Origin: Rhizomonospora bruguierae
GTDB lineage: Bacteria > Actinomycetota > Actinomycetes > Mycobacteriales > Micromonosporaceae
DNA length: 64,000 nucleotides
Reading direction: 5' to 3'
NCBI RefSeq assembly: GCF_018397995.1
Contig: NZ_BBQH01000016.1
Span: 1-64,000 of the forward strand
Shown piece by piece: positions 9,053 to 60,165 of this stretch. The position numbers and the translations under genes are program-made. How positions within the stretch are numbered: the first letter of the stretch is position 1; every line of letters begins with the position of its first letter. The notes beneath the pieces were generated by a model. It worked only from the letters and a program-made list of their open reading frames with translations. It made no database searches and was not told where the DNA came from.

Positions 9053-9261
9053 GCGCGCATCGCCGCTTCCCGGTCCCCGCCCAGCCCCGAAGAAGCTGTG
9101 AGGTTTGACCCCAAGGAGACCACGACCACCGGCGCGGTAGTGGGCCCCACCCGTACCCGACGAGCCCAGACATCCAGGTCGTCGGCGGCGTCAGACCCGT
9201 GAAGCGTGGGTCGAGGGGGTTGCGGGCGGCGATGGAAACCCTTCACGAGATGGTGGTTTTG

Positions 9262-29340: not shown

Positions 29341-29617
29341 CGCCCCAACTTGTCAAGATTCGGGCAAGTTCACCTGCTGATGTACCTATGCACATTGACT
29401 GTGTCATATTAGGCCGACCGGTAAGCCGTCTGTGCCAACGAGACACCGTGGTCACCGACGCCGTCGACTGCGGAGCCGACCCGATCATCACGGCGGACGT
29501 GGGCCAGCACGCTGCGGCATTCGCGCGGCGTGCCGAGGCCGTCGGCGATGTCCTGCCGACAAAGCACCTTCGCGGTGCCTGCGCGGTGACAGACCGCACG
29601 ACGATGGAGGGATAAGA

Positions 29618-32962: not shown

Positions 32963-33093
32963 GGCCCGCCAAGGCGCCGCCGACGTGCACTGATGTCAAT
33001 GGCCTGATGGTGCGCTGGCGTCAAGTGCTCGGTCGGCGGCATCTGTCACGCTGCGGTCATGTCTGTGTATCCCAACGCATTTGGGGAGTGACG

Positions 33094-34164
33094 TTGTCAG
33101 GACGTGCGAGGACGGGGGCCGCGTTCAGCACCGACCTCAGCGACGCGGCGTTGACCGTCTACGGATTCGCGGAACGCCGTCCGGGCGCGACCGCCGGCAT
33201 GGTGGCGACGGCCACCGGGATCGCGTTGCGGGTCGTCAACGATGCGATTGGTGAGCTTGTCGACGCCGACCTGCTGTACCGGAGCGACTCCGGCCGGTTG
33301 AGCCCGACGAACCCTTGCCTGGCCCTCGACGAACTGGCCAACCGGCACTGGCGTGACCTGGCCGCCCGGCATCGCCGGCTGCAAGGCGTCTACCAGGCGC
33401 AGCAACGGGTGTTCGAGGCGCTGAGCGCGGTGCCCGGCGCCGAGGGTGAACCGGCGGCCGGGTGTGCCGCCGCACAGGTCGAGCCGGTGTGCCCGCACCG
33501 CCTCGGGCCGCTGCTGAGCGGCGTGCGTCATGTGCTGCGGCTCGTGTGCCCGACGCCGCTGTTGACCCAGCTGCACAGCGGTGAACCGGCAGCCGGCCTG
33601 GCCTATCCGGCCCTGGCGCGGATGGCCGGACGGATGAACCTGGTCGTGCAGCGGTCGTGCCTGAACTCGCTGAGCACGTACCGTCTCCTGCGGATGCTGG
33701 GCCGGCGCGGTGCCAGACTGCGGGTGGCGGACGCGGTGCCGTTGCCCTTCGCGATTCTGGACGAGGCAGCGGTACTGGCGGGACATCCTGTCCGTGCGGA
33801 CCAGGACGTGATGATGTTGCGCGGCCGGCCGGTGGTGGACCTGTGGGCCGCGGTCTTCGATCACCTCTGGTCCACATCCGATCACCTGCCGGCACGTCAC
33901 CCGGTCCGGGTGCGCGACGAGCCCGAACCGGACGGGCTCGGCGCGCAGCAACAGGCGGTGCTGCGCCTGCTGGCCTGCGGAGCCAAGGATGAGGCGATGG
34001 CTCGACACCTGGGTGTCTCGCTGCGCACGCTGCGCCGCATCGTGTCCGAGACCATGACGAAACTCGGTGCGCAGTCGCGGTTTCAGGCCGGCCTCATCGC
34101 CGCGTCATACGGGTTGCTCGACCGGAATGCGCCGGGTCGCCCGCCGGTCGACCGAGTCGGCTGA
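33094..34164 (+). CDS. LuxR-type transcriptional regulator
   Basis: About 356 residues from TTG 33094, which has GGGGAG at good spacing; GTG 33088 and ATG 33007 are in frame but less convincing. The N-terminus looks like a TrmB-type winged helix (ALTVYGFAERRPGATAGMVA), the middle contains a region without a recognisable motif, and the C-terminus is a LuxR HTH (LGAQQQAVLRLLACGAKDEA then LGVSLRTLRRIVSETM). It lacks a receiver domain. It is the last gene before the first lanthipeptide precursor and probably regulates the cluster. Family members of this shape are common next to actinomycete RiPP and lipopeptide genes. Confidence 0.85.
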   Translation: MSGRARTGAAFSTDLSDAALTVYGFAERRPGATAGMVATATGIALRVVNDAIGELVDADLLYRSDSGRLSPTNPCLALDELANRHWRDLAARHRRLQGVYQAQQRVFEALSAVPGAEGEPAAGCAAAQVEPVCPHRLGPLLSGVRHVLRLVCPTPLLTQLHSGEPAAGLAYPALARMAGRMNLVVQRSCLNSLSTYRLLRMLGRRGARLRVADAVPLPFAILDEAAVLAGHPVRADQDVMMLRGRPVVDLWAAVFDHLWSTSDHLPARHPVRVRDEPEPDGLGAQQQAVLRLLACGAKDEAMARHLGVSLRTLRRIVSETMTKLGAQSRFQAGLIAASYGLLDRNAPGRPPVDRVG

Positions 34165-34335: not shown

Positions 34336-34581
34336 ATGAACCACGTACGGGCTTGGAAGGATCTCGACTACCGCGACTCGATCTCCGGCGAGGAGCTTGC
34401 CACGCTGCCGGCGCACCCGGCTGGCGGCATCCTCGCAGACGCAGAGCTGGCTCAGATCTCCGGTGGCACGCCCACCACGCCGGTCTGCGGAGTCATCACG
34501 ATTGTCACGCTGAGCGCCGCCTACTGCACCAAGAACTCGGTGTGCGGGACGTGCGGTTTGTGGACGAGCGGTTGCTGCTGA
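34336..34581 (+). CDS. lanA1: Class II lanthipeptide precursor 1
   Basis: 81-residue precursor with TGAGGAGGCG upstream. The leader (1-44) has AWKDLDYRDS, LPAHPAGG and a DAELAQISGG end, the double-glycine type cut by C39 proteases and typical of mersacidin/lichenicidin-like precursors. The predicted core after GG is 37 residues with six Cys (core 7, 20, 26, 29, 36, 37) and eleven Ser/Thr, ending in CC. The neighbouring LanM would dehydrate Ser/Thr and form thioether rings. It shares leader motifs but not core sequence with the second precursor 3.5 kb downstream, suggesting a two-peptide lantibiotic. The core lacks the CTxTxEC lipid II motif. Confidence 0.92.
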   Translation: MNHVRAWKDLDYRDSISGEELATLPAHPAGGILADAELAQISGGTPTTPVCGVITIVTLSAAYCTKNSVCGTCGLWTSGCC

Positions 34582-34597
34582 CGCATCGGGCGTACTC

Positions 34598-34628
34598 GGT
34601 GTGGTCGCCTCGCGTGGGCGGCCACACC
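34598..34628 (+). terminator. Attenuating hairpin after lanA1
   Basis: GGTGTGGTCGCC (34598-34609) pairs with GGCGGCCACACC (34617-34628), 12 bp with one G-U pair and a 7-nt loop. It separates the precursor gene from its LanM gene and would allow more precursor than enzyme mRNA. Confidence 0.6.
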
Positions 34629-34667
34629 GTCGCATCCCGACCCGGCACGGGGATCTGGAGGAGATCG

Positions 34668-37600
34668 ATGGGGCAAGTTCGCGGAGCCGAGGGCGGTGGC
34701 GAGCCGTTCGATTTCGACCCGGGTGCGTGGCGCCCGGCGGCACATCTGCACGAGCGGGATCCCGCCGCCGGGGACCAGGAGTTGGGCCGCCGACGCAGAC
34801 GGCGGTGGGCCACCACGTTCGGCTCGGAGACGGCGCTGGAGGCCGGCTTGCGCTGTCTTGGCCTCGATGAGCCGCTGTTTGACGGGCTGCTGGGCGTGCT
34901 TGCCTCAAGCGGCGCGACCAGCGGCGCAGAGCCGCCGGGTGCCGCTTCCGGCGACGCGGGACGCCCGGCGTGGGTCGGCGAGGTCACCGCGGTGGTGGCC
35001 GACGGGACTGCCGGCCCCGAGCCCTATCTCGCGGCGGACGACCGGCTCGGCCTGCTGCGCGTCGTGGGGCCGCAGGTGCGTGGCTACCAACGCCGCTTGC
35101 ACCGCAAGGTGACCACCGTGGTGGGTGCGGGCGCGGCCGGCGGCCGGCTGGCGGCGCTGCCGGACCTGCTGGCCTCGGCATGGCCGGAGTCGGCGGTTAC
35201 GTCGGCGGTGCTGCGGACCTCCGTGCTGGAGTTGGCGGTGGCGCGGGTGGAGGACCGGCTCGTCGGGTCGACCCCGGAGGAACGCTTCGTGTCGTTCGTC
35301 GAGATGCTCGGCCTCCCGGCGACCCGGCACACCATCTGGAACGAGTATCCGGTGCTCGTCCGGTACGTCAACGACGTCCTGCGGCATTGGTGCGAGGCGA
35401 GCCTCGAACTCGCCGCACGGCTGTGCGAGGATCTGCCGGCTCTTGACGCGCTGGCGCCGGGTGTGAGCGGTCTCGGCGAGGTCGTGGCGGTCGGCCTCGG
35501 TCAAGGCGACACACACCGGCGCGGCCGCAGCGTCGCGACGATTGAGTTCGCCCGCGGAAAGGTGGTCTACAAGCCGCGGTCGCTCAAGGTCGATCTGGCC
35601 TGGCGGGCGGTGCTCGACTGGTTCAACAACGGGGTCACGGCGCACCGACTGCGCACCCCGGAGACGTTGACCCGCCCGGGCTACGGCTGGGCGGAGTTTG
35701 TGGAGCGGCGGGGGTGTGCCACGGTTGCCGAGCTGGCGGCGTTCCACTGGCGGCTCGGCGCGCTGCTTGCCCTGCTGCATGCGCTGCATGGGGTCGACGT
35801 GCACTTGGAGAACGTGATCGCCTCCGGCGCCGATCCGGTGATCATCGACCTCGAGGCGCTGTTCCACGCCGCACCGGCGGCCGGGCGGCACAATATGTGG
35901 ACTGACCCGGCTGCGCAGCTGATAGATACCGGGGTGACCGCGGTCGGCATCCTTCCCGAGAAAATGATCATCAAAGGGAATCAGCCCGCCCGGGCGCTCG
36001 ATCTCAGCGCCGTGGGCTCCGGGGGCGACCAGATGACGCCGATCGCCGTGCCGTCACTCGTCGGGCTCGGCACCGATGCCGTGCGAGTCGTGGACGAGCA
36101 CGCCCCGTTGCCGCATCTGAGCCTCAGCCGTCCGAGCTTCGGCGGGCGGGACGTCGACCCGGCCGAGTTCGAGGACGAGCTGGTCGAGGGGTTCACAGCG
36201 ACGTACCGGCGCATCGCCACGGAACGGGCGCGCTGGCTTGGGCCTGGCGGGCTGGTCGACGGTTTCGCCGAGGTGCGCCTGCGATACGTGGCCCGTCCCA
36301 CGGCGTACTACGGTCGGGTCCTGCTGGACAGCCTGCACCCGGACTTTTTGCGCGACTCGGCGGAGCGGGACCGCGCGCTGGCGCGGATCGCGGTCGGCGC
36401 CGACGGCGACCAGCGCTGGGAGTGCCTCGTCGCGAGTGAGCTCGCCGACCTGCGGGTCGGTGACATCCCATGTTTCGAGATGCGACCCGGGGAACGCAAT
36501 CTTTACGCCGCATCCGGCGACGTGATCGCCGATTTCCTCGACGACGCCCCGATCGCCCGGGTACGGCAACGGGTCGAGCAGGTGTCCGAGCCTGCACTGC
36601 GCCATCAGGTGGACCTCATCCACCGCACGTTCGAATCACTGCGGGTCGGGCACCGGACCCAGCTGTCAACGGAGAAACTGCCGGTCGAGCCGCTCGGCGC
36701 CGAGGAGGGCCGAGCCGCCGCGCTGCGGATAGCACACCGCCTCGTCGACGGCGCCATCCGCGACGGCGACGACCTCGGCTGGATCATTCTGCGGTTCGTC
36801 GACGAGTTGCACTGGCAGGTGGGCGCGGCCGAACTGGACCTGTACTCGGGACTATCCGGCATCGGACGGTTCCTGTCCGCAGTGGCCGGTCGCACTGCCG
36901 ATCCGCGGACCACTGAGGCCGCGTTACGCGTCGCTGATATCGTCGCCGGGCGGGCGAGCCGGATGGCCGAGGCGTTCCCGCGGAAGATGAACAGCAACCG
37001 CCTGCTGCTGGACGTCGTGACCGAGAACGCCGATCTCGGCGCCTTCGGCCCGCTCAGCGGCACGGTCTACTACCTGGCGCACGCCGCCGCAGCGCACGAT
37101 CGGCCTGACCTGCTCGACGTCGCAGAGCAACTGCTGGACGTGCTCGCGCTGTCCATCGACCGGAGCGGCTGCTTTGACCTGCTCGCCGGTGCCGGTGGGG
37201 CACTGCTGGCGCTGTTGGCGCTGCATCGGATGCGGCCCGGCTCACGGGCGCTGCCGCTGGCTCGGCAGGCCGCCGCCCGCCTGGTCGAGGGTGCGATACC
37301 GGCCGGCGACGGGCTCGGCTGGCCGTCGAACTTCGGTGACCGGCCGCTGCTAGGCATGTCGCACGGCACGAGCGGCATCGCGTACGCGCTCGCCCGGCTC
37401 CACGCCGTCGAACCGCAGGACGTCTACGCCGCCACGATCGAGGCGGCACTGCGCTACGAGGCCGGCACGTTCGACGCCGGTGCCGGCGGCTGGCCGGACC
37501 TGCGTCGGCCCGAGCACGGCGGCTCCGCCACGCCACTGGTCGCCTGGTGCCACGGCGCACCCGGCATCGCGCTGTCCCGGATCGGTATCCTCGGCGCACC

Positions 37601-38060
37601 GCTGCCGGCGGCGGTGCGCACCCTGGCCACCGACAGCCTGGCGGACGCGGAGCTGATCGTGCGGCGGGAGACGTTCGGAGCGCACCGTGGCCAGTTCGTC
37701 AGCCAGGGCAGCAACGTGCTGTGCCACGGTGACCTGGGCAACCTGGAAGCTCTGGTGCTGGCGGCACGCCGGCGTGGCGACGACGATGCGCACCTGGCAT
37801 GCCTGCGTGCGCTGCGGCAGATCGTCCGGCACGGCGCTGCTGCCGACTACCGGACCGAGCCGATGAGTTCGGCCGCCGTGCCCGGGCTCATGTACGGATT
37901 GGCCGGCATCGGGTACAACCTCCTGCGACTGTCTGATATGGATAGTGTGCCGTCGGTGCTACTGCTCGATCCGCCGATGCAGGCAGGCGACGGCCGTTGC
38001 AGTTTGCTGCCAGCGCAAACGCTTCAGCCGGCCATGCTGCCCGGCGAAGAATTGGGTTAA
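34668..38060 (+). CDS. lanM1: Class II lanthipeptide synthetase LanM1
   Basis: Bifunctional cytoplasmic enzyme of 1130 residues, start ATG 34668 with GGAGGAG upstream (the longer ORF in frame is not coding). The N-terminal DUF4135 dehydratase/kinase-like domain contains GDTHRRGRSV, VVYKPRSL (about 300) and VIIDLEALFH (about 395). The C-terminal LanC-like cyclase domain starts near LYSGLSGIGRFLS (about 725) and keeps the zinc ligands: Cys in WCHGAPG and Cys-His in NVLCHGDLG. It follows precursor 1 directly and most likely modifies it. All key residues that I can check are present. Confidence 0.95.
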   Translation: MGQVRGAEGGGEPFDFDPGAWRPAAHLHERDPAAGDQELGRRRRRRWATTFGSETALEAGLRCLGLDEPLFDGLLGVLASSGATSGAEPPGAASGDAGRPAWVGEVTAVVADGTAGPEPYLAADDRLGLLRVVGPQVRGYQRRLHRKVTTVVGAGAAGGRLAALPDLLASAWPESAVTSAVLRTSVLELAVARVEDRLVGSTPEERFVSFVEMLGLPATRHTIWNEYPVLVRYVNDVLRHWCEASLELAARLCEDLPALDALAPGVSGLGEVVAVGLGQGDTHRRGRSVATIEFARGKVVYKPRSLKVDLAWRAVLDWFNNGVTAHRLRTPETLTRPGYGWAEFVERRGCATVAELAAFHWRLGALLALLHALHGVDVHLENVIASGADPVIIDLEALFHAAPAAGRHNMWTDPAAQLIDTGVTAVGILPEKMIIKGNQPARALDLSAVGSGGDQMTPIAVPSLVGLGTDAVRVVDEHAPLPHLSLSRPSFGGRDVDPAEFEDELVEGFTATYRRIATERARWLGPGGLVDGFAEVRLRYVARPTAYYGRVLLDSLHPDFLRDSAERDRALARIAVGADGDQRWECLVASELADLRVGDIPCFEMRPGERNLYAASGDVIADFLDDAPIARVRQRVEQVSEPALRHQVDLIHRTFESLRVGHRTQLSTEKLPVEPLGAEEGRAAALRIAHRLVDGAIRDGDDLGWIILRFVDELHWQVGAAELDLYSGLSGIGRFLSAVAGRTADPRTTEAALRVADIVAGRASRMAEAFPRKMNSNRLLLDVVTENADLGAFGPLSGTVYYLAHAAAAHDRPDLLDVAEQLLDVLALSIDRSGCFDLLAGAGGALLALLALHRMRPGSRALPLARQAAARLVEGAIPAGDGLGWPSNFGDRPLLGMSHGTSGIAYALARLHAVEPQDVYAATIEAALRYEAGTFDAGAGGWPDLRRPEHGGSATPLVAWCHGAPGIALSRIGILGAPLPAAVRTLATDSLADAELIVRRETFGAHRGQFVSQGSNVLCHGDLGNLEALVLAARRRGDDDAHLACLRALRQIVRHGAAADYRTEPMSSAAVPGLMYGLAGIGYNLLRLSDMDSVPSVLLLDPPMQAGDGRCSLLPAQTLQPAMLPGEELG

Positions 38061-38138
38061 GCCGGGACCCGGAGTGTGTCTACCGAGCGGACATTCGCCG
38101 CGAGCTGCCGGAACTCATCATCGACCAAGGAGTCCCCT

Positions 38139-38384
38139 ATGGACATTGCACGTGCGTGGAAGGACCCACAGTACCGAGCGGGCCTTCCGGTCGCCGAGCG
38201 CGAATCGCTGCCAATGCACCCGGCCGGCGAGCCGGGTCTGGAGCGGATCGACGACGCGGAGCTGGAGGCCATCGGCGGTGCCGGCACCGCCTGGATCGCG
38301 ACCCTCGGCTGCTGCAACTGGTACATGACGCTCACCGGGGGGACCACAATCCTGCCCTGCACCGCTATATACATCTGCTACTGA
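38139..38384 (+). CDS. lanA2: Class II lanthipeptide precursor 2
   Basis: 81-residue precursor from ATG 38139 with AAGGAG 7 nt upstream. The leader mirrors precursor 1 (ARAWKDPQYRAG, SLPMHPAGEPG, DDAELEAIGG). The core after GG is 34 residues with four Cys (core 11, 12, 27, 33) and seven Thr but no Ser. The TLTGG...PCTAIYIC part recalls the ring layout of mersacidin (TLPGGGGVCT...C), but the conserved Glu needed for lipid II binding is absent. The adjacent Cys-Cys pair is unusual. It is followed by its own LanM. Confidence 0.92.
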   Translation: MDIARAWKDPQYRAGLPVAERESLPMHPAGEPGLERIDDAELEAIGGAGTAWIATLGCCNWYMTLTGGTTILPCTAIYICY

Positions 38385-38428
38385 GCGACCTGACTGACCG
38401 GCGTGACCGCGCCTGACGCAGTCACCTG

Positions 38429-38464
38429 TTCCGCGGGCCCGCCGCCTCCCGTGGGCCCGCGGAA
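38429..38464 (+). terminator. Attenuating hairpin after lanA2
   Basis: A perfect 12-bp stem, TTCCGCGGGCCC (38429-38440) with GGGCCCGCGGAA (38453-38464) and a 12-nt loop, lies between precursor 2 and LanM2, in the same position as the hairpin after precursor 1. Confidence 0.7.
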
Positions 38465-38528
38465 CCCCAGGTCTCTGCCGGACTCCCCGCAGACCACGTG
38501 TCACCGTCGATGGGACGAGTAAAAAGAG

Positions 38529-41500
38529 ATGACCGTCGCTGACCAAACCACGCCCGGCTCGACGTCATGGCACCGGGCACTGCGACTGGGCGAACGGGCC
38601 ACCACCGCACCGTACGGCGCCCGCCGCCCGACGCCGGACCTGAGCGGCTTCGCCGACGTGCTGAACGTGCCCGTCGACGGGGCGGAACTACCCCGGGCAG
38701 CCGGGATGTTCGGCCTCGGCGTCGACGACCTGCTCCGCCCGCCCGTGCCGAACGACCCGACAGAGCCGTCCTGGCTGCGGGATATGACGGCGGCGCGGGC
38801 GTACCCGGGCCCGCCGGAGCCCTGGATGGTCACCGACGGACAGCTCGGCCTGCTCCGGCTCGTCGGCCCGTACGTACGAGCCTTCCAGCGCCAACTCCAC
38901 AACCTCGTCGCTGACGCGCTGCCGGCCGGAGAATCGCGGCAGCGGCTGTCCGGCCTCCCGGCACTGCTCGCCGCCCAGTGGCCGGCGGAGCAACTCAGTA
39001 CGGCACTCGGACCGACGATGGTGCTGGAGCTCAACGTCGCACGGGTGCGTGGCGAACTCGCCGGCGACACGCCCGAAGCCCGGTTCGCCGACTTCGTGCG
39101 GCGGCTCGACATGGCCGCGGATGAGTTCTGGGTCGAGTATCCGGTCCTGCTTCGGTACCTGCACGACGTCTTCCAGGGCTGGGTCGAATCACGCACGGCG
39201 TTCGCCCGGCACCTGGTGCAGGACCTCCCGCTGCTGGACGGGACGTTCGGCGACGACGCGTCGTTGGGCGACTGTCAGGCAGTCGAGTTCGGAGCCGGTG
39301 ACCGGCATCGGGGGGGCCGAAGCGTCGCGATCGTGAGTTTTGCCGGTGGCCGGGTCGTCTACAAGCCGCGTTCCCTGGCCGTGGACGAGGCGTGGCATGC
39401 GGTGGTCGCGTGGTTCAACGGGCGCGGACCGAGACACGATCTCGTCACCCCGGTCGTCGTCTCGCCGCCCTCCACCGGCGACCGCGGCTGGGCGGGCTTC
39501 ATTGCCGCCGGGGAGTGTGCCGACCGCGGCGAGGCACAGGCCCACTACTGGCGGACCGGTGCCCTGCTCGCCCTGCTTTACGCGGTCCGCGCGACCGACG
39601 CGCACACGGAGAACCTGATCGCTGCGGGGCCGTACCCGGTGCTCGTTGATCTGGAGACCCTGCTGCACCCCGCCCCTGCCCGACCGGCGATGCCGTGGAA
39701 CGATCCCGCGGCCGCCGCCATCGCCGGCGGCGTGACCTCCATCGGCCTGCTGCCCCGGAAGCTTTTCGTGCCCGGCGAGCGGGGGCTTGCGGTGCTTGAC
39801 TTCAGCGCCATCGGCGTGCCGGAGCGGCAGTTGACGCCGTTCACCGTGCCCACGCCCACCGACGCCGGCACCGATGCCATGCGGCTTGTCGACCAGCGGG
39901 CGCCGGTGGCCGTGAACGGCGCCAGCCGGTTGCGCGTGGCAGGTCGGCTCGCAGATCCGCGGCATTACCAGCAGGATGTGCTCGACGGCTTCAGCTGGGC
40001 GTACCAGGCCATCTGCGCCGACCGTGACGCCTGGTTGGGGGCGGGCGGCCTGTTGGACCGGTTCGCAACGGTGCCGGTCCGGTACATTTCCCGGCCTACG
40101 TCGTACTACGCGCGGCTGCTCGGCCAGAGCCTGCATCCGGACTACCTGCGCAACGCGGCGGACCGGGACAGGACGTTCTTCCGCCTCGCGTTCGGCGTCG
40201 ACCCTGGCAGCCTCAGTGAGCGCCTCGTGGTATCCGAGTTCGCGGACCTGCGTGCCGGCGACATCCCGTACTTCGCCGCCCGGCCTGACTCCCGTGACCT
40301 GTGGAACAGCCGCGGGGAGCGAATCCCGGACGCCCTGGACCGTCCCTCGCTCGCCGAGGTCACCGAGCACGTCCGCGGGCTCGGTGAGCCCGACCTCGCC
40401 GCACAGACGTTGCTCATCCGCCAGGCGTTCGCCTCCCTGCAGAGCGGTCCGGTCTCCACGCTCGCTCCGCCGGTGCCGAGCCCGCTGGTCAACGCTCCGC
40501 TGAGTCCTGCCGAGGCGCATGAACTGGCCGCGATGCTGGCCCGCCGGGTGTGCGCGTCGGCGGTCCGGCTCGGCACGGACATCGGCTGGATCACCATGCG
40601 TCTCATCGAGGATGTGCACTGGGCGGTGGATGCCGCACCGGCGGACCTCTACTCGGGTGTCGCGGGCATCGGCCTGTTCCTGTCAACGGTGGCGGCACTG
40701 ACCGGTGACCCCGAGATCGCCGAGACGGCCCTCGCCGCTGCTGAGGCGGTCGCCGCCCGCGCGCATCTCGTCGGCGGGGAGATCGCCCGCGAGGTGACCC
40801 GCCGCGGCACGTTGCCGCCGCTGCTGCGGCGCACCGCGGACGCCGGCGTGTTCGGCATGTTCGGCGGCACGATGTACTACCTCACCCACGCCGGCGCGCT
40901 GCACCATCGGCCCGACTTCCTCGATGCCGCCGAGGCCCTGCTGCCCGTGTTGCGCCGCTACGTTGCCGACGATCCGTCTGCCGACCTGGTGTCCGGTGCG
41001 GCTGGCGCGATCGTCGCCGCCCTGGTGCTGGACCGGACCCGTCCCTCGGACGAAGCCGTGGACGTGGCGGTCGCGGCGGGCCGGCGCCTGCTCGACACCG
41101 CGGTCGCCGCTCGTGGCGGCCTGGCCTGGCCGGCGCGGTTCGACCACAGTCCGCTCACCGGTATGGCCCACGGCGCCGCCGGGGTGGCGTTCGCCCTCGC
41201 CCGCCTTGACCGGCTGGTCCCGGGACTGGGCTTCGCCGAGGCGGTTGCCGGCGCCCTCCGCTACGAACGGGCGGTACGCGACGACACCGCCGGCACTTGG
41301 CCGGACCTTCGCGACCAGGCCCGCGGCGGTGGTGGCGTGCCGCTGGTCGCATGGTGTCACGGCGCGGCCGGGATCGGCCTGTCCCGGTTCGCGGTGCTCG
41401 ACCACCCCGGCCTCTCCGACCTGCATGCGGGCGCCGCCGACGATCTCGCCGTGGCGGAACGTGCGGTCTGGCGGAACCTCGTCAGCACCGATGCCGACGC

Positions 41501-41807
41501 GCAGCCCATGCTGGTCGGGCTGGGCACGGACGCGCCCTGCCACGGCACGCTGGGCAACCTGGAACTGCCGCTGACGCTGGCCCGCCGACGCGGCGACGAC
41601 GAAGCGGTGCGGCGGTGCCTGACCCTGGCCCAGACCGTGGCCCGCGACGGCTTGCAGCGCGGTTGGCGTACCGGGGTGCCCGGTGTCGAGGACATCCCCG
41701 GCCTCATGTACGGCCTCGCCGGCATCGGCTATCAGTTTCTTCGCCTGGTCGATCCGGGCCTCCCGTCACTGTTGCTCCTCGATCCGCCGGTGGGCAGCCG
41801 TGGATAG
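38529..41807 (+). CDS. lanM2: Class II lanthipeptide synthetase LanM2
   Basis: 1092 residues, ATG 38529. The dehydratase domain shows GDRHRGGRSV, VVYKPRSL (about 280) and VLVDLETLLHP (about 370). The LanC domain starts near LYSGVAGIGLFLS (about 705), with zinc ligands in WCHGAAG and APCHGTLG. It resembles LanM1 in layout but is divergent in sequence, as expected of two synthetases dedicated to the two peptides of a two-component lantibiotic. It is followed closely by the membrane-protein gene. Confidence 0.95.
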   Translation: MTVADQTTPGSTSWHRALRLGERATTAPYGARRPTPDLSGFADVLNVPVDGAELPRAAGMFGLGVDDLLRPPVPNDPTEPSWLRDMTAARAYPGPPEPWMVTDGQLGLLRLVGPYVRAFQRQLHNLVADALPAGESRQRLSGLPALLAAQWPAEQLSTALGPTMVLELNVARVRGELAGDTPEARFADFVRRLDMAADEFWVEYPVLLRYLHDVFQGWVESRTAFARHLVQDLPLLDGTFGDDASLGDCQAVEFGAGDRHRGGRSVAIVSFAGGRVVYKPRSLAVDEAWHAVVAWFNGRGPRHDLVTPVVVSPPSTGDRGWAGFIAAGECADRGEAQAHYWRTGALLALLYAVRATDAHTENLIAAGPYPVLVDLETLLHPAPARPAMPWNDPAAAAIAGGVTSIGLLPRKLFVPGERGLAVLDFSAIGVPERQLTPFTVPTPTDAGTDAMRLVDQRAPVAVNGASRLRVAGRLADPRHYQQDVLDGFSWAYQAICADRDAWLGAGGLLDRFATVPVRYISRPTSYYARLLGQSLHPDYLRNAADRDRTFFRLAFGVDPGSLSERLVVSEFADLRAGDIPYFAARPDSRDLWNSRGERIPDALDRPSLAEVTEHVRGLGEPDLAAQTLLIRQAFASLQSGPVSTLAPPVPSPLVNAPLSPAEAHELAAMLARRVCASAVRLGTDIGWITMRLIEDVHWAVDAAPADLYSGVAGIGLFLSTVAALTGDPEIAETALAAAEAVAARAHLVGGEIAREVTRRGTLPPLLRRTADAGVFGMFGGTMYYLTHAGALHHRPDFLDAAEALLPVLRRYVADDPSADLVSGAAGAIVAALVLDRTRPSDEAVDVAVAAGRRLLDTAVAARGGLAWPARFDHSPLTGMAHGAAGVAFALARLDRLVPGLGFAEAVAGALRYERAVRDDTAGTWPDLRDQARGGGGVPLVAWCHGAAGIGLSRFAVLDHPGLSDLHAGAADDLAVAERAVWRNLVSTDADAQPMLVGLGTDAPCHGTLGNLELPLTLARRRGDDEAVRRCLTLAQTVARDGLQRGWRTGVPGVEDIPGLMYGLAGIGYQFLRLVDPGLPSLLLLDPPVGSRG

Positions 41808-41826
41808 CCGGACCGAGGTGCGTGGG

Positions 41827-42255
41827 ATGACCGATGCCGCCGGCCCTGACGCGCCGGACGGCGGCGACCTTCTGGAGCGCCAGCTGCGTCCGCCGGTGCG
41901 GGCCATCATCCTCTGTGTCACCGCCATGGCCCTTCTAGTCGGCATCGGCGCCGGTGTGCGGGTCCCGTGGCAGGTCCGGCTCGTGCCGGTCGACGTCGTC
42001 GGCGTCGAGGTGCTCGCCGTCGCTCCCGCCCGGCAGGACCCGCAGGAACTCGTCGGCGCGGCGGTCACCGCACACACCCGGACAGGTCCGGTGCCGGGGC
42101 GGGTCGTCGCGGTACGGCCGTGGGCACCACGGCCCGGCGACCCGCCACAAGGCGTTGTGGTCGTCGCGTTGCCCACGCCGCCGGCCGAGATCGCCGACCT
42201 CACGGTGGTGTTGGGCCGGCGCTCCTTGTTCACCGACATCGTGGCGGAGGCGTGA
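41827..42255 (+). CDS. Small membrane protein, possible HlyD-like adaptor
   Basis: 142 residues from ATG 41827 (GAGGTGCGTGGG upstream; a GTG at 41800 overlapping LanM2 is the alternative). One membrane helix (AIILCVTAMALLVGIGAGV) is followed by a proline/valine-rich extracytoplasmic beta region with GVVVVALPTPP and LTVVLGRRSLF, resembling the last beta-barrel of HlyD-type membrane-fusion proteins. The coiled-coil and lipoyl domains are missing. Its stop overlaps the exporter start, which suggests that it works with LanT. The function is inferred from position and residual similarity only. Confidence 0.6.
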   Translation: MTDAAGPDAPDGGDLLERQLRPPVRAIILCVTAMALLVGIGAGVRVPWQVRLVPVDVVGVEVLAVAPARQDPQELVGAAVTAHTRTGPVPGRVVAVRPWAPRPGDPPQGVVVVALPTPPAEIADLTVVLGRRSLFTDIVAEA

Positions 42256-44486
42256 TGGGTGTCTTCCGGCGCCGAGTACCGGTGCTGCTGCAGGCCAGCA
42301 TGGCGGAGTGCGGCGCGGCGGCACTCGCCATGATCGCGAGCTACTTCGGTCGCCCGACCAGGGTCCGGGAGTTGCGTGAACGCCTCGGCGTCGGTCGCGA
42401 CGGCACAACGGCAGCGGCGCTCGTCCGCGCTGCCGACGAACTGGGCCTACGTGTGAACGCGCTCCGCTGCGCACCGGGCGCCCTCGACCGGGTGCGGCTG
42501 CCCGCCCTGATCCACTGGCATGGCAACCACTTCGTCGTGCTGGAGCGCTGGAGCCCGACCCGGGCCGACATCGTGGACCCGGGAGTCGGCCGCCGCAGGC
42601 TCGAACGCACGGAGTTCGATGCCGGGTTCAGCGGCGTCGTGTTGGAGATGACTCCGACCGTGCGGATGGTCCCCGCCCGCCGCGACCACGCCGGGCTCGT
42701 CCGGTTCGTGTGGCGTTATCTGCCCCACCGGCCCGCACTGTTCGCGATGATCCTGGTCGCGTCCGTCGTCCTCACCCTGGTCGGCCTGGTGCCACCGCTG
42801 CTGACCCGCTATGTCGTCGACGATGTCGTGCAGGCCGGCCGGGGCGACACCATGGTCGTGCTCTCCGCCGCGGCTGCCGCACTGATCGTCGGCCAGAGCC
42901 TCGTCGGATACCTGCGCCGGGAACTGCTGCTGCGCCTGCGTACCCGGCTCGACCACGGCATGATGTCGGCCTTCCTGCGCCATGTGTTCCGACTGCCGTA
43001 CCGGTACTTCCAGCTACGCACCAGCGGTGACCTGCTGACCCGGATGTCCAGCAGTGCCATGCTGCGCGAGGTCGTCTCCACGCATGTGTTCACCCTGGTG
43101 CTGGACACCGCGTCGGCGGTGGTCTACGCCGTCCTGCTCTGGCGGGTGTGGCCGCCGCTGGCCGCGCTCGTGGCGGGCGTCGCATTGCTGCAGGTGCTGG
43201 TGGCGCTGGCCTACGCGCCGTCGATCCGCCGGGCCACCGACCGTGAGCTGACCGCGATGGCCGCGGCGCAGAGCCGCCTCGTGGAGGCGCTGACCGGTAT
43301 CGAGTCGCTCAAGGCCGCGGGCGCCGAAAATGTGGCACTGTCCCGCTGGAACCGGCTCTACCGTCAGCAGTTGGGCGCAACTGTCAGCCAGGGCGGGCTG
43401 CGCAACACCATGGACGCGCTGCTCGATCTCACCCGGGTCGGCATGCCGATCGTCCTGCTGCTCGTCGGTGCACATGCCGTGCTGGCCGGGAACCTGTCGC
43501 TCGGCACGATGCTCGCGGCCAACCTGCTCGCCGGCATGGCACTGTCACCGATCACTTCGCTGTCCCAGGTGTACCAGAGCTTCCAACTCGTCGGCACCCA
43601 CATCGATCGCCTTCGGGACGTGTTGGAAGAGCCGCCGGAGCAGCCTGAGGGAGCACCGCTGGACACGGTCGAGATCAGCGGCGCCGTGCAGGTGCACGAC
43701 GTCACGTTCCGGTACCAGCCGGACGCGCCGCCCGCGTTGATCGACGTCGATGTGGACGTGCCGGCCGGTGGGTACATCGCCATCGTCGGACGCACCGGCT
43801 CCGGCAAGAGCACCCTTGCCCGGCTGCTGGTCGGCCTCTATCAGCCGGATGAGGGCGAAGTCCGATTCGACGGCGTACCGCTGCGACGCCTCGACGTGCG
43901 CTGCGTGCGACGGCAATGCGGCATCGTCGTGCAGGACGCCGCCGTCTACAGCGGTTCGATCCTGGAGAACCTCACCATCAACGCACCGGACACTCCGCTC
44001 TCAGCGATCGTTGACGCGGCGCGGCTCGCCTGCCTCCACGACGACATCGCCGGCATGCCGCTGGGCTACGCCACTCCCCTCGGCGAGGGCGGCGGCGGCC
44101 TGTCCGGTGGCCAACAGCAGCGCCTGGCGCTCGCCCGGGCGCTGGTGACCCGGCCACGGCTGCTGGTGCTCGACGAAGCCACCAGCCATCTGGATGCGGA
44201 CACCGAGGCCCGCGTTCACGCGAATCTCGCCCGGCTGCGGGCGACCCGGATCGTCGTCGCGCACCGGCTCAGCACCGTCGTCAACGCCGACACGATCCTC
44301 GTCGTGGAGCGCGGCCGGGTGGTGGAGCGTGGCCGGCACGACGACCTCGTCGCGGCCGGCGGCCGTTACGCGGCGCTGGTGAGCGCCCAACTGCCGGCCG
44401 AGGCGCACGGCGGTCACGCCGGGCGAGGGCAGTCGCAGATCGAAGGAGAGGAGGACCAGACGAGGGTGGCCGAGACCGTCCCGTAG
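42255..44486 (+). CDS. lanT: LanT peptidase-containing ABC exporter
   Basis: 743 residues. The N-terminal C39 peptidase (1-130) has the oxyanion Gln and catalytic Cys (LLQASMAECGAAALAM), His (WHGNHFVVLE) and Asp (IVDPG). Six membrane helices follow (about 150-440), then an ATPase with Walker A GRTGSGKST (about 515) and signature LSGGQQQRLALARAL. It would cut precursors 1 and 2 after the double glycine and export the cores. Its start overlaps the upstream gene (TGATG). Confidence 0.95.
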   Translation: MGVFRRRVPVLLQASMAECGAAALAMIASYFGRPTRVRELRERLGVGRDGTTAAALVRAADELGLRVNALRCAPGALDRVRLPALIHWHGNHFVVLERWSPTRADIVDPGVGRRRLERTEFDAGFSGVVLEMTPTVRMVPARRDHAGLVRFVWRYLPHRPALFAMILVASVVLTLVGLVPPLLTRYVVDDVVQAGRGDTMVVLSAAAAALIVGQSLVGYLRRELLLRLRTRLDHGMMSAFLRHVFRLPYRYFQLRTSGDLLTRMSSSAMLREVVSTHVFTLVLDTASAVVYAVLLWRVWPPLAALVAGVALLQVLVALAYAPSIRRATDRELTAMAAAQSRLVEALTGIESLKAAGAENVALSRWNRLYRQQLGATVSQGGLRNTMDALLDLTRVGMPIVLLLVGAHAVLAGNLSLGTMLAANLLAGMALSPITSLSQVYQSFQLVGTHIDRLRDVLEEPPEQPEGAPLDTVEISGAVQVHDVTFRYQPDAPPALIDVDVDVPAGGYIAIVGRTGSGKSTLARLLVGLYQPDEGEVRFDGVPLRRLDVRCVRRQCGIVVQDAAVYSGSILENLTINAPDTPLSAIVDAARLACLHDDIAGMPLGYATPLGEGGGGLSGGQQQRLALARALVTRPRLLVLDEATSHLDADTEARVHANLARLRATRIVVAHRLSTVVNADTILVVERGRVVERGRHDDLVAAGGRYAALVSAQLPAEAHGGHAGRGQSQIEGEEDQTRVAETVP

Positions 44487-44560: not shown

Positions 44561-44764
44561 ATGAGGAGCATGCTCACGTTCACCGATCGGCTCGTCGACC
44601 GCCTGGTCCCCAAGGTCCCGGCGGCGGCCGAAACCTACAAGGGAATCACCTGCAGCAACAACCGGTGCGCCATCTTCTGGCGCCAGGAGCTGGAGATCAC
44701 CTGCGTCTACTCGTCGCAGGGTGCGATCTGCAACGTCACCGGTTGGATCGGTTGCGGCTGCTGA
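44561..44764 (+). CDS. Cys-rich peptide, candidate new RiPP precursor
   Basis: 67 residues with AGGAAGG upstream of ATG. The N-terminal part (TFTDRLVDRLVPKVPAAA) is amphipathic, has no hydrophobic signal core, and ends in Ala-Ala-Ala, a signal-peptidase-like site. If cut there, a 44-residue product remains with six Cys (product positions 8, 13, 25, 34, 42, 44), ending GWIGCGC. It shares nothing with the two lanthipeptide leaders: no double glycine and no AWKD. It is followed by a hairpin and then by thioredoxin-like, ABC exporter, S26 peptidase and MauE-like genes, which could fold, export and cut it. Six cysteines and the redox genes suggest disulfides, but thioethers cannot be excluded. I do not recognise a described family. 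Confidence 0.72.
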   Translation: MRSMLTFTDRLVDRLVPKVPAAAETYKGITCSNNRCAIFWRQELEITCVYSSQGAICNVTGWIGCGC

Positions 44765-44781
44765 ACGCAGCCTCGCCGGAT

Positions 44782-44807
44782 GGGCCGCCCGAGCTGTCGG
44801 GCGGCCC
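44782..44807 (+). terminator. Attenuating hairpin after the Cys-rich peptide
   Basis: A perfect 11-bp stem, GGGCCGCCCGA (44782-44792) with TCGGGCGGCCC (44797-44807) and a GCTG loop, follows the peptide gene, exactly as in the two lanthipeptide precursor genes. This supports its being a highly expressed peptide gene. Confidence 0.7.
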
Positions 44808-44828
44808 TGTCGAGAGAGGGCACCTCGG

Positions 44829-45374
44829 ATGGACCTAGGCGACGCCGTCACCGCGCTGGTAGGAGTGGTGACACTTATAAATCTCGTGCTTGCCGTCGGC
44901 ATCGTGCGCCGGCTACGGGAGCACAGCACCCGGCTATCCCGTCTCACCAGCCCGTTCGGCGAGGGCACACCCACGATGCTGCCGCCGGGCCAGGCTCCCG
45001 GGCCGTTCTCGGCCACCACCATCGACGGCGAAACCGTCTCCCTGGATGCCGTTGCCGATGGTGCGCTCGTCGCGTTCCTCGCCGCGGACTGCCGCCCCTG
45101 CCAGGAGGAGACGCCGGCCTTCGTCGATCGCGCGGCCGCGATGCCGGGCGGCCGGTCACGGGTACTCGTCGTCGTCGCTGGCGCGTCGCACCGCGACGAG
45201 TACGTCGCGCGACTCAGCCCGTTCGCCCGCGTCGTCATGGAGCCCGACGGCGGGCCGGTTACCGCCGCCTTCGCCGTGCGCAGCTACCCGTCCTTCGCGC
45301 AGGTCGGCCACGACGGCATCGTCACCGCCACCGGCCACCGCGTCGCCGATCTTCCGGCACCGGCGCTGACATGA
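44829..45374 (+). CDS. Membrane-anchored thioredoxin-fold protein
   Basis: 181 residues, TlpA/MauD-like. An N-terminal membrane helix (ALVGVVTLINLVLAVGIV) is followed by a thioredoxin domain facing outward, with redox motif CRPC in AADCRPCQEETPAF (about 95) and the cis-Pro region RSYPSFAQV. Start ATG 44829 with a GAGAGAGGG site. It overlaps the next gene by ATGA. In methylamine dehydrogenase clusters MauD works with MauE; here a MauE-like gene closes the same operon, so the pair probably controls disulfides in the secreted Cys-rich peptide. That last step is an inference. Confidence 0.85.
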   Translation: MDLGDAVTALVGVVTLINLVLAVGIVRRLREHSTRLSRLTSPFGEGTPTMLPPGQAPGPFSATTIDGETVSLDAVADGALVAFLAADCRPCQEETPAFVDRAAAMPGGRSRVLVVVAGASHRDEYVARLSPFARVVMEPDGGPVTAAFAVRSYPSFAQVGHDGIVTATGHRVADLPAPALT

Positions 45375-47254
45375 CCGGCATCGACATACCCGGTCCGCCG
45401 CCGCCCGCCGTCGGCCGGGGCCCCGGGCGATACGTCAGGGACTGTCTCCACCTCGTCTGGGCAGCAGCCCCGTCCGCGATGATTGTTCTCGTCGCGGCGG
45501 CGTTGCTGGCCGCCGGCGCGCCGGCTGCCGCGGCTTGGCTGACCAAACTGGTGCTCGACGCCGTCGCGGCGTCAGGGAGCGCCGCGCTGCCGCACGCGGC
45601 GCCGCTGGCGCTCGGGCTTGCCGTCCTCGGTGTCGTGGTGGCCGGCGTCCCGCACCTGTCCCGCTACGCGCACCACGAGGTGGAGCGGCGCACGGCCCGG
45701 GTGATGCGGGACCGGCTCTTCATCGCCGTCAATAGGCTGGCCGGCCTGGCTCGGCTGGAGGACCCGGTGTTCCACGACCGGCTCCAGCTTGCCCAGCAAG
45801 CGACCCGGGCGGCACCGCGTCAGGCATTCACCGGCCTGATCGGCATCGGCCAGGCCGGGCTGACCCTGGTCGGGTTCATCGGCACCCTCGTGGTGCTCAG
45901 CCCGTGGATGGTCGCAGTGATCATATTGGCGGCGCTGCCGGCGCTCGGTGTAGAACTACTGATGAACCGCGGCCGAGCCGCTGTCGCGTGGCGGCTCGGC
46001 CAGCCGGAGCGCCGCGACATCTTCTACACTGAGCTGCTGTCGAGCGTGGCCGCCGCGAAGGAGATCCGTCTCTTCGGCCTGGGCCGGCACTTCGCCACCC
46101 GAATGCTCGCCGAACTGTCCACCATCCATCGCGAACAGCGCACCGTGGACCGGCGTGAGCTGCGCTGGCAGCTGGCGCTCGGCGTCTTTGCCGCGACGGT
46201 CGCAGGTGCCGGCCTCATCTGGGGAGTGCGTCAGGCAGCATCGGGCGCACTGACCGTCGGTGACGTCTCCATCCTGATCGCCGTGATCGCCGGGGTGCAG
46301 TCCGCGTTGACCGTCGCCGCCGTGCAGGTCGGCTCGGTCTACGCGGCGCTGCTGCTGTTCCAGCATTACGACGATGTGCTGCACACCCCGTCGGATCTGC
46401 CGGCGCCGGCCCGGACACGGTCTGCGGCGCCGCTGCTCGATGGCATCGAGCTGCACGACGTTTGGTTCCGGTACAGCGACCACCATCCGTGGGCACTTCG
46501 CGGCGTCAACCTCCGCATACCGCGCGGCTCGGCGGTCGCACTCGTCGGCCCGAACGGTGCCGGGAAGAGCACGTTGGTGAAGCTGCTCTGCCGGTTCTAC
46601 GACCCGACGAAAGGCGCCATCACCTGGGACGGTGTCGACCTGCGCGAACTCGACCCCGCGGACCTGCGCCGTCGGGTCGGCGTCGTGTTCCAGGACTTCA
46701 TGCGGTACGACCTCTCCGCTGCGGACAACATCGCCGTCGGCAACCTCTCCGCACAGCACGACCCCGACCGAATCCAGTGCGCCGCCCGGCATGCACACAT
46801 CCACGACGACCTGGTCAGGCTCCACAAGGGCTACGACACGCTGCTCACGAGGATCTTCTCCGGCCACGGCGACAAGGGCCGACCGGAGACCGGCGTCGTG
46901 CTCTCCGGCGGGCAATGGCAACGCCTGGCCCTCGCCCGTGCGTTGGTGCGCTCCGATCCGGACCTGCTCATCCTCGACGAACCCAGCTCGGGCCTCGACG
47001 CCGATGCGGAGGCCGCGATCCACGCGCGGTTGCGCGCGCACGGTGCTGGCCGGACCAGGCTGCTGATCTCCCACCGCCTCAACACGGTACGCGACGCGGA
47101 CCGCATCGTCGTGTTCGACGACGGCCGCATCGCCGAGCAGGGCAGCCACGACGCACTGATCGCAGCCGACGGCGTTTACCGGCGGTTGTTCAATCTGCAG
47201 GCCAGCGGCTACCTCACCGGTGCCACCGAGCCCGCCCGGATGGTGACATCATGA
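45371..47254 (+). CDS. ABC exporter without peptidase domain
   Basis: 627 residues: six membrane helices (about 30-320) and an ATPase with Walker A GPNGAGKST (about 395), signature LSGGQWQRLALARAL (about 510) and Walker B LLILDEP. Unlike the LanT exporter it has no C39 domain, so peptide cleavage must be done by another enzyme; the S26 peptidase gene overlaps its stop codon. Membership in the Cys-rich peptide module makes that peptide the likely cargo. Confidence 0.92.
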   Translation: MTGIDIPGPPPPAVGRGPGRYVRDCLHLVWAAAPSAMIVLVAAALLAAGAPAAAAWLTKLVLDAVAASGSAALPHAAPLALGLAVLGVVVAGVPHLSRYAHHEVERRTARVMRDRLFIAVNRLAGLARLEDPVFHDRLQLAQQATRAAPRQAFTGLIGIGQAGLTLVGFIGTLVVLSPWMVAVIILAALPALGVELLMNRGRAAVAWRLGQPERRDIFYTELLSSVAAAKEIRLFGLGRHFATRMLAELSTIHREQRTVDRRELRWQLALGVFAATVAGAGLIWGVRQAASGALTVGDVSILIAVIAGVQSALTVAAVQVGSVYAALLLFQHYDDVLHTPSDLPAPARTRSAAPLLDGIELHDVWFRYSDHHPWALRGVNLRIPRGSAVALVGPNGAGKSTLVKLLCRFYDPTKGAITWDGVDLRELDPADLRRRVGVVFQDFMRYDLSAADNIAVGNLSAQHDPDRIQCAARHAHIHDDLVRLHKGYDTLLTRIFSGHGDKGRPETGVVLSGGQWQRLALARALVRSDPDLLILDEPSSGLDADAEAAIHARLRAHGAGRTRLLISHRLNTVRDADRIVVFDDGRIAEQGSHDALIAADGVYRRLFNLQASGYLTGATEPARMVTS

Positions 47255-47709
47255 TGTACGCCCTCCCGTCTACCCTGGTCCTGGTCGGCTGCGCATGGTG
47301 GCTCGTGCGGTGGAAACTCGTGGTCGTCACCGTCCACGGCACCAGCATGATGCCCACATACCACGACGGTGATCGGGTCCTGGTGTGGCGCCGGCCGATC
47401 ACCAGGATCCGCCGCGGGCAGGTCGTGGTCGTCGAACGCCCGCACAGCGTGCCGCGACTGGGTATCACACCCTTTGCCCGGACGAGCGCCCGGGAATGGA
47501 TCATCAAGCGGGTGCATTCGGTGCCGGGTGATCCGGTGCCGCGCACACAGTTCCCCGCGCTTCGGTACACCGCCGAACAACGGGTGCCACGGCACCGGCT
47601 CGTGGTTCTCGGCGACAACACTGCGGATAGCCACGACTCCCGCAGCTGCGGCTATGTGGACGCCCGGCTGGTCCTCGGGATCGGTATCCGGCGACTCCAC
47701 CCTTCCTGA
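47251..47709 (+). CDS. S26-family (type I) signal peptidase
   Basis: 152 residues with an N-terminal membrane helix and the Ser/Lys dyad: Ser in VHGTSMMPTYHDGD (about 32) and Lys in EWIIKRVHSVPGD (about 87), plus the LGDNTADSHDSR box (about 122). It is shorter than housekeeping signal peptidases. The start overlaps the ABC exporter stop (ATGA within ATGATG). Placement inside the operon suggests a dedicated role, most simply cutting the Cys-rich peptide after its Ala-Ala-Ala motif on the outer face of the membrane. Confidence 0.9.
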   Translation: MMYALPSTLVLVGCAWWLVRWKLVVVTVHGTSMMPTYHDGDRVLVWRRPITRIRRGQVVVVERPHSVPRLGITPFARTSAREWIIKRVHSVPGDPVPRTQFPALRYTAEQRVPRHRLVVLGDNTADSHDSRSCGYVDARLVLGIGIRRLHPS

Positions 47710-47736
47710 CAGGCCCGGTCTGGAAGAGAAAGGACG

Positions 47737-48303
47737 ATGTCGATGACGCACCTGTCAACCGGCCTGATCGTCACGCTCGTGGTGGTGTTCGCCACCTCCG
47801 GGGCGAGTAAGCTTCGCGGCCCCGACGCGCAACGGACGTTCGCCGCGTCACTGGGCGATCTGCCGTTCCTTCCCGCACGGTCGGTCCGGGGGGTCGCAGC
47901 CGCGCTCACCGCTGGCGAACTGATGGTGGCCGCCGATCTGCTCGCATCGCTTATCGCCGGCTGGGCCGGGTTGCCCGGCGCGGTAGCCATGACCGCGGTG
48001 GCGCTCACGGCTACCGCGATATTGCTGATCACCCTCACCGTCGGGATCGCCATTACGCTACGGCGCGGCGTACGGGCAGGCTGCGCCTGTTTCGGGTCGG
48101 CGCACCGGCCGCTTGGCGTGTCACACCTGGTCCGCAACGTGCTGCTACTTGCCGCAGCCGGGACCGCAGCCGCGCTGCCACCCGCACCCCCGGTCCGGCC
48201 TCAGGACCTGCTTGTGGCCGTGACGGCCGGCGCGGTGGCGGCGTTCCTCATCATCCATGCCGACGACATGGCGGAGCTGTTCGCCGCGAATCCGGGGCAG
48301 TAG
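47737..48303 (+). CDS. MauE/DoxX-type redox membrane protein
   Basis: 188 residues with four or five membrane helices and the MauE-like CACFG motif (about residue 112, in RAGCACFGSAHRPLG), whose cysteines are the presumed redox pair. ATG 47737 with GAAAGGA upstream. MauE relatives pass electrons across the membrane to thioredoxin-fold partners; the TlpA-like gene three genes upstream is the likely partner. It is the last gene of the second peptide module. From 48304 to 48450 there is only non-coding sequence with weak inverted repeats. Confidence 0.85.
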   Translation: MSMTHLSTGLIVTLVVVFATSGASKLRGPDAQRTFAASLGDLPFLPARSVRGVAAALTAGELMVAADLLASLIAGWAGLPGAVAMTAVALTATAILLITLTVGIAITLRRGVRAGCACFGSAHRPLGVSHLVRNVLLLAAAGTAAALPPAPPVRPQDLLVAVTAGAVAAFLIIHADDMAELFAANPGQ

Positions 48304-60001: not shown

Positions 60002-60020
60002 CGAGGAACTCCTTCCACGA

Positions 60021-60165
60021 CGCCTACCGGGTTAGCTGACGGGTTCGGGCGGGAAAGAGCGCCCTACCGCGTGCGATACGCGGATTCACCCCAGGAACCT
60101 GGGTCCCCGGCTCGCGCGGGTGCGCGACTCGGCGGTGCCCCGCGCCGTCGGTTTGACGGCCAGCG
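60021..60165 (-). ncRNA. ydaO-yuaA riboswitch (c-di-AMP)
   Basis: The leader of the C39-fold gene, read on the minus strand, contains the conserved pieces of this class in order: GGGGTGAATCCGCG, then AGGGCGCTCTTTCCCG, then CCGAACCCGTCAGCTAACCC and GGTAGGCG ending at 60021, 20 nt before the GTG start. The 5' boundary near 60165 is approximate. c-di-AMP binding is known to turn such genes off. The rest of 60166-60349 holds no gene. Confidence 0.85.

Follow-up and report, generated by a model that had tools for sequence, protein, structure and literature searches.

We describe a set of five consecutive genes, at positions 44561 to 48303 of a window of 64,000 nucleotides from the actinomycete Rhizomonospora bruguierae (contig NZ_BBQH01000016.1, positions 1 to 64,000), that encode a cysteine-rich peptide, a thioredoxin-like protein, an ATP-binding cassette (ABC) exporter, an S26 peptidase and a MauE-like membrane protein. 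The cassette is real and recurrent, has been partly anticipated in print, and is best described as a putative route of disulfide-rich peptide biosynthesis in which the leader would be removed at an A-x-A site by an S26 enzyme and the product exported without a C39 domain. We consider it probable that the five genes work as one unit, which produces a disulfide-rich peptide, oxidises and trims it and sends it out of the cell; this estimate covers either side of the membrane as the place of maturation. The features are as follows.

44561-44764, + strand: precursor peptide gene, 67 amino acids (ATG at 44561, stop codon at 44762-44764)
44561-44629, + strand: leader, residues 1-23, amphipathic, with C-terminal DRLVDRLVPKVPAAA (alignment A2, position counts and hydrophobic moment of the family)
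44630-44761, + strand: predicted mature core, 44 amino acids with six Cys (computed mass 4870.15 Da, monoisotopic, with three disulfides and 4876.20 Da when reduced)
44829-45374, + strand: membrane-anchored thioredoxin-like (TlpA/ResA-like) protein (AhpC-TSA, 6.8e-6; CRPC at 45090-45101)
45371-47254, + strand: ABC exporter, permease plus ATPase (ABC_tran, 1.2e-30; family alignment A7)
47251-47709, + strand: S26 peptidase with one membrane span (Ser32 at 47344-47346, Lys86 at 47506-47508)
47737-48303, + strand: MauE-like membrane protein (PF07291; CACFG, with the CxCFG Cys codons at 48082 and 48088)

The peptide consists of MRSMLTFTDRLVDRLVPKVPAAA followed by a 44-residue core, and all six Cys lie downstream of the AAA at residues 21-23, after which the cut is predicted. 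Its open reading frame is preceded immediately by AGGAAGG and has a GC content per codon position of 0.47/0.53/0.90, typical of a real gene; nothing in Pfam, NCBIfam or PHROGs matched it at the limits applied. A first-pass annotation of the window had proposed this six-Cys peptide gene with its AAA site, followed by the four partners in the order given above and by ATGA overlaps among the first three of them, and all of this is confirmed at the base level and by profile matches, with the overlaps at 45371-45374 and 47251-47254 and a gap of 27 bases between the S26 gene and the start of MauE. The assignments of the individual partners also stand: a profile search found no Peptidase_C39 match in the exporter, the S26 protein scores 73.4 bits against sigpep_I_bact (cut-off 47) and carries the Ser/Lys dyad, and the MauE-like protein scores 64.5 bits against PF07291 (cut-off 27; 1.5e-17).

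The same genes recur together in other genomes. A pattern built from eight TlpA proteins, which themselves came from loci originally reached via the peptide, found 150 relatives, and the best 80 of these, with named records, were taken as loci; several genomes are represented repeatedly among them, and some loci are identical to ones in our first set, for example L126, L170, L179 and L192. Scored with partner profiles built from the first-set loci, at limits of our own choosing (300 bits for the ABC exporter, 60 bits for the others), 76 of the 80 loci hold the exporter, 77 the S26 peptidase and 53 MauE, and 50 have the complete set of four partner genes. A leader-type peptide accompanies them at 77 loci, at 71 by pattern and at six by eye. 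The commonest gene orders are peptide-MauE-TlpA-ABC-S26 (12 loci) and peptide-TlpA-ABC-S26 (11), and the genera include Streptomyces, Micromonospora, Nonomuraea, Microbispora, Planobispora, Amycolatopsis, Actinomadura, Thermobifida and many less common ones. Co-occurrence of the five genes in other genomes had been set beforehand as the test of the idea, which would have failed had the genes not recurred or had the neighbours been conserved in the absence of the peptide; neither was the case, as the exporter, the S26 peptidase and a peptide are found at nearly all of these TlpA-fetched loci, MauE being the least constant member. None of 20 control regions of 20 kb from 14 related genomes, placed at fixed positions and without random drawing, holds any of the four partner genes, and the sole peptide pattern match among them, in genome G004, looks like a genuine family member. 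Within 1.386 Mb of cassette loci the peptide pattern matched 83 times, versus three times in the reversed sequence and one to six times per shuffle in ten shuffles of 12-base blocks. Of 82 pattern peptides, 77 have a cassette gene no more than 1 kb away, in 70 cases on the same strand.

Searches that started from the peptide gave a similar picture. In 61 genomes the window peptide found its own genome and two weak matches (0.0064 and 0.0091), one beside an S26 and a thioredoxin-like gene, the other a pair of tandem peptides without partners, while a four-peptide profile had matches in 18 genomes, own genome counted, among 298 of the order. Thirty peptide-fetched stretches of about 20 kb contain S26 in 25 cases, TlpA in 24, a cassette-type ABC exporter in 24 (one partial; 43-57% identical to the window exporter) and MauE in 19. 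Phylum-wide scans of 396 genomes found at least two that match the whole-peptide alignment A2 and at least six that match the TlpA alignment at 1e-15, own genome counted in both; these are lower bounds because few first-look candidates were scored per genome. Relatives of the exporter at 1e-80 occur in 29 plasmid records, 26 of them from Streptomyces. In the public record of Streptomyces clavuligerus, where two peptides and all four partner genes sit on a 707-kb plasmid, MauE, ABC and S26 are named separately and both peptides and the thioredoxin-like protein are 'hypothetical', and in that of Streptomyces atratus the peptide is missing from the (incomplete) gene table. With its constant leader and ever-changing product, this looks like a family of disulfide-knotted natural products that is widespread in actinomycetes and has received little study.

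Peptides are sometimes located apart from a cassette. The genome of R. bruguierae holds three more, two on contig C17 and one on C53, each near just some of the partners. In G004, loci L035, L036, L037 and L221 carry several precursors with no cassette nearby, three of them in tandem in L036, and locus L145 of Rhizohabitans arisaemae (6715-12431) holds six different precursors with six Cys each. A stand-alone S26 gene is found on contig C11 of R. bruguierae (L083, 9547-10200, - strand); it scores 119.9 bits with the cassette profile, versus 46-63 for housekeeping enzymes, and the fetched 19.5 kb around it contain no TlpA, MauE or pattern-type peptide.

In the subsets aligned, the active sites of the partner enzymes are conserved. 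In the thioredoxin-like protein both Cys of the CxxC motif and a later Pro are invariant in 24 of 24 sequences, in S26 Ser32 and Lys86 are invariant in 24 of 24, and the CxCFG motif of MauE is invariant in 17 of 17. These alignments (A3, A4 and A5) took in 24 of 28, 24 of 27 and 17 of 20 sequences and left out L051, whose S26 is a cut frame of 80 amino acids in which the Ser motif is not seen, and the near copies L058 and L059; all of those TlpA and MauE proteins carry CxxC or CxCFG. Clustering of neighbouring genes, in which clusters resembling antisense frames were disregarded by eye, placed a SARP/STAND-type regulator at 36 of the 80 loci, and a regulator profile matched 55 of the 80 loci versus two of the 20 controls, a comparison that favours the cassette loci since the profile was built from them. 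Examples combine BTAD with NB-ARC or, in one case, a helix-turn-helix domain with NB-ARC, and such a regulator is a frequent sixth gene of the cassette. A scan for sigma-70 promoters and terminators gave no match and is uninformative in such DNA.

The precursors form a family defined by their leader. From 127 collected peptides, 121 distinct ones, and 120 after removal of one false positive, were retained, together with 89 representatives below 60% identity, again with one false positive removed; the rows taken out ahead of the Cys count were L123:4352 and one match in L055, neither of which has the family leader. The leader is some 23 residues long, contains no Cys in any family member and is conserved at D-R-L-L, V-P and A-x-A positions. 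The A-x-A site noted in the window peptide is thus shared across the family; its presence is partly by construction, because A-x-A belongs to the search pattern, and the peptides rescued by eye, for which it was not required, possess it likewise. Helical hydrophobic moments (87 leaders of sufficient length) are 1.69 versus 0.82 for shuffled sequences, and a hydrophobic core of the Sec type is not seen, the median of the maximum 10-residue hydropathy being 1.17, with values of 2.0 or more in four of 120 leaders. Downstream of the leader, the cores range from 27 to 64 residues and, with Cys excluded, are 0.22 identical versus 0.21 for shuffled cores and 0.37 for the leaders; these identity and leader-position figures come from 88 of 90 representatives, two that lacked a scripted site being left out and the L055 false positive still being included. 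The core is therefore hypervariable while the leader is conserved, and the family has the encoded precursor with a conserved leader and separate core that defines a ribosomally synthesised and post-translationally modified peptide.

What the cores do share is the parity of their cysteines. An even number is found in 114 of the 120 distinct peptides and in 83 of the 89 representatives; among unrelated open reading frames from these loci the share is 60.5% (1965 of 3249), a null rate that exceeds 50% since the count begins at four and that gives P = 1.9e-12 for the representatives. Even numbers are expected if every Cys is paired, and the parity together with the redox genes suggests that the core may be modified after translation. 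The mostly even Cys number favours disulfides over lanthionines; LanM relatives are absent at 118 of 119 related stretches. Peptides found outside the count have eight Cys (L238) or six (the G004 control match, two from S. clavuligerus and one from S. atratus). When 32 family members were compared with family models, only single members grazed a model and no group-wide match appeared. A sequence search of the Protein Data Bank with alignment A2 returned nothing up to E 10. A looser knottin-like spacing fits 25 of the 120 peptides, which is not evidence on the fold.

Several observations weigh against reading the five genes as one peptide cassette. No peptide was found by pattern and eye at three of the 80 loci (L143, L167, which lies on a short contig, and L174), MauE is outside the fetched stretch at 27, and neighbour clustering, with no search aimed at one, revealed no obvious immunity gene. 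Five of the 30 peptide-fetched stretches, four in G004 and one in G025, are without any partner; both genomes carry a cassette elsewhere, and we regard service in trans as a possibility only, because the cassette stretches there (L235-L237) show no pattern-type peptide. The profile matches in L038, L048 and L057, also among the 30 stretches, were not confirmed by the pattern. Nor is Cys parity absolute, because peptides with seven or 11 Cys exist: the six exceptions among the 120 comprise five with seven and one with 11 (L116, L138, L140 twice, L150 and L161), and the later find L239 also has seven. Four of the five 7-Cys peptides (L138, L140 twice and L150) belong by eye to one subfamily, which L239 resembles, and possibly these carry a free Cys or form a dimer. 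Finally, the fold prediction for the peptide is too weak to be relied on, with a predicted local distance difference test score (pLDDT) of 62.5 and a predicted template modelling score (pTM) of 0.25.

Immediately beside the cassette the window holds a lanthipeptide cluster, which together with the remaining features noted is listed here.

34336-44486, + strand: two-component class II lanthipeptide cluster
34336-34581, + strand: lanthipeptide precursor (by eye), followed by LanM
38139-38384, + strand: lanthipeptide precursor (TIGR03898, 2.1e-14), followed by LanM
29432-31537, + strand: SARP-type regulator (BTAD plus NB-ARC), 5' of the lanthipeptide genes
33007-34164, + strand: LuxR-type regulator, 5' of the lanthipeptide genes
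60007-60144, - strand: cyclic di-AMP riboswitch (RF00379, 94.7 bits)

The second LanM is 45% identical to the first and is followed by a C39 exporter, and since the peptide gene starts only 74 bases past this exporter on the same strand and its core contains Ser, Thr and Cys, one could imagine that it encodes another lanthipeptide of this cluster, its third, which LanM would modify and the C39 protein would export. Its leader, however, ends without GG or GA, an even number of Cys would have no reason in such a product, and tblastn found a relative of the window LanM at just one of 119 related stretches (a weak 28% match in L035) and of the C39 domain at none, which makes this explanation very improbable. 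With LanM and C39 all but missing from related loci, the cassette is independent of the adjacent pathway, and the contrast drawn in the first-pass annotation with the double-glycine/C39 logic of the neighbouring genes is upheld. As classes for the product, we likewise rejected a class II lanthipeptide, LanM not being linked to the precursor family, and a double-glycine peptide exported by a C39 protein, the leaders ending in A-x-A and the window ABC exporter lacking C39. A metal-binding or redox-sensing peptide, akin to a metallothionein and served by a dedicated redox pair, would account for the high Cys content, and zinc-ribbon models gave marginal matches (0.0012-0.0013) to one of 32 members; that it is a single one, that the cores differ beyond recognition while the Cys number mostly shifts by two, and that an exporter and a leader peptidase point to secretion leave us giving little credence to this possibility. 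It could also be that the redox pair and the S26 enzyme act on something else, such as a protein of the cell surface, with the small open reading frame a bystander, as the loci without MauE nearby and the G004 and G025 peptides lying apart from their cassettes would allow. The presence of a leader-type peptide at nearly all TlpA-fetched loci, the proximity of the pattern peptides to cassette genes and the absence of these genes from every control region speak for a connection, and we judge a bystander role to be very unlikely.

The earlier interpretation of the five genes as a dedicated peptide system is thus supported, and a pathway can be proposed whose enzymatic steps, order and membrane side we infer from gene content and conservation. 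The ribosome would make a precursor with a short amphipathic, non-Sec leader, which would direct it to the cassette in the membrane; the thioredoxin-like protein would form the disulfides and be re-oxidised by the MauE protein; the S26 peptidase would cleave after A-x-A, replacing the C39 domain of double-glycine exporters; and the ABC exporter would carry the product out of the cell, where it may act as a bioactive peptide such as an antimicrobial.

The side of the membrane on which maturation occurs allows two arrangements. In one, the TlpA domain, the CxC loop of MauE and the S26 site all face the cytoplasm, and the peptide would be oxidised and trimmed inside and exported as a finished disulfide knot. 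With membrane spans called by a crude hydropathy script, the positive charge lies C-terminal of the TlpA anchor in 110 of 114 proteins, with four ties, which puts the catalytic domain on the inside (K+R averages 0.04 before the span and 3.78 after it), and 83 of the 99 S26 proteins with a called span (of 104) point inside, six outside and 10 are ties; the two counts are not independent, some loci being in both sets. The CxCFG loop of MauE is likewise strongly positive in 17 sequences. Two housekeeping S26 enzymes of the same genome (L086) show the opposite layout, with charges ahead of the span, and the redoxins of this genome (three of seven obtained) have charges ahead of the span or are lipoprotein-like. 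The alternative is that the same cassette matures its peptide wholly outside, the reduced full precursor being exported and then cut and oxidised by extracytoplasmic S26 and thioredoxin domains, against which all of these charge patterns count. For it speaks the classical layout, in which thiol oxidases known from bacteria act outside, as do type I signal peptidases, and the window's own S26 is among the six outside-pointing proteins, with a net charge of 0 before and -1 after its span. In addition, MauD, owing to its substrate, is usually assigned outside, and MauD-like proteins from other actinobacterial families (L195-L206; 10 of 12 obtained), which fall below the MauD cut-off, show a similar if weaker N-terminal charge pattern. 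Because these proteins share the pattern, we hold the inward-facing arrangement at about even odds; maturation outside has, in our view, nearly as good a chance of being correct as not. Inverted quinone-linked oxidases of archaea would be a precedent for the inward-facing arrangement, and a limited search of the literature did not find a text stating so.

Parts of this system resemble known ones. Disulfide-containing bacteriocins with helper thiol oxidases use a double-glycine leader and a C39 exporter, and sublancin, with BdbA and SunT, likewise combines a Cys-containing peptide with a thiol-disulfide helper and an exporter; the cassette differs from the disulfide bacteriocins in that its leader ends in A-x-A, its S26 enzyme is a protein of its own and MauE is a partner. 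SodX, the maturation protease of nickel superoxide dismutase, is an S26 enzyme that trims a non-Sec leader, and the window S26 scores 40.2 bits against the SodX model TIGR02754, below the cut-off of 63.25. Pediocin with PedC is a further disulfide bacteriocin that, as in the cassette, has a thiol-disulfide helper and an exporter (PMC4919988). Actifensins, defensin-like bacteriocins of Actinomyces, share with the cassette peptides an actinobacterial precursor with a leader, six Cys, diverse cores and ABC genes, and have three disulfides and up to seven operon copies; they differ in a GA cleavage motif and a subtilisin-like protease, and the main text of the study on them mentions neither 'S26' nor 'thioredoxin' (PMC6989792). 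The actifensin (CS-alpha-beta defensin) spacing C-x5-12-C-x3-C-x9-10-C-x4-5-C-x-C occurs in none of our 120 peptides.

In methylamine dehydrogenase maturation, MauD and MauE are a thioredoxin-like and MauE pair tied to the many disulfides of the product, according to the main text of the decRiPPter study (PMC7794033), and the cassette similarly pairs a thioredoxin-like protein with MauE. The cassette protein is not itself a MauD, having no TIGR02661 match up to E 0.1, and the MauD model found nothing in its own genome at 1e-10. As its main text describes, decRiPPter applied a strict filter under which a cluster needed a transporter together with a predicted peptidase and a regulator. It yielded three candidate families in Streptomyces that contain mauE homologues, and in one case mauD as well, and whose precursors have eight or more Cys; its authors propose that MauE modifies the precursor (PMC7794033). 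These families share with the cassette mauE, a Cys-rich precursor and the transporter, peptidase and regulator context, and may well be of the same kind. Section 7 of that paper is a paragraph-length prediction in which S26, an A-x-A site, a leader family and Cys parity do not appear, and the terms thioredoxin, S26 and signal peptidase are absent from the main text, with one 'S26' somewhere in the full record (PMC7794033). The system may therefore be partly in print, because this 2020 prediction covers mauE, Cys-rich precursors, transporter, peptidase and regulator. In the open literature, judged by titles and abstract openings and with subscription journals outside the scope, we recognised nothing further as this system.

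The cassette defines a family of disulfide-rich peptides in which a constant leader precedes an almost freely changing core, as seen in 89 representatives below 60% identity, an arrangement that has a parallel in venom peptides. Combined with a tolerant machine for disulfide formation and export, such a leader would make a useful platform. If the inward-facing arrangement is true, the cassette would represent dedicated disulfide formation on the cytoplasmic side, coupled to export in actinomycetes, with an S26 peptidase standing in for the C39 domain, and its topology thus makes a basic issue testable, namely whether bacteria form the disulfides of secreted peptides on the inner side of the membrane.

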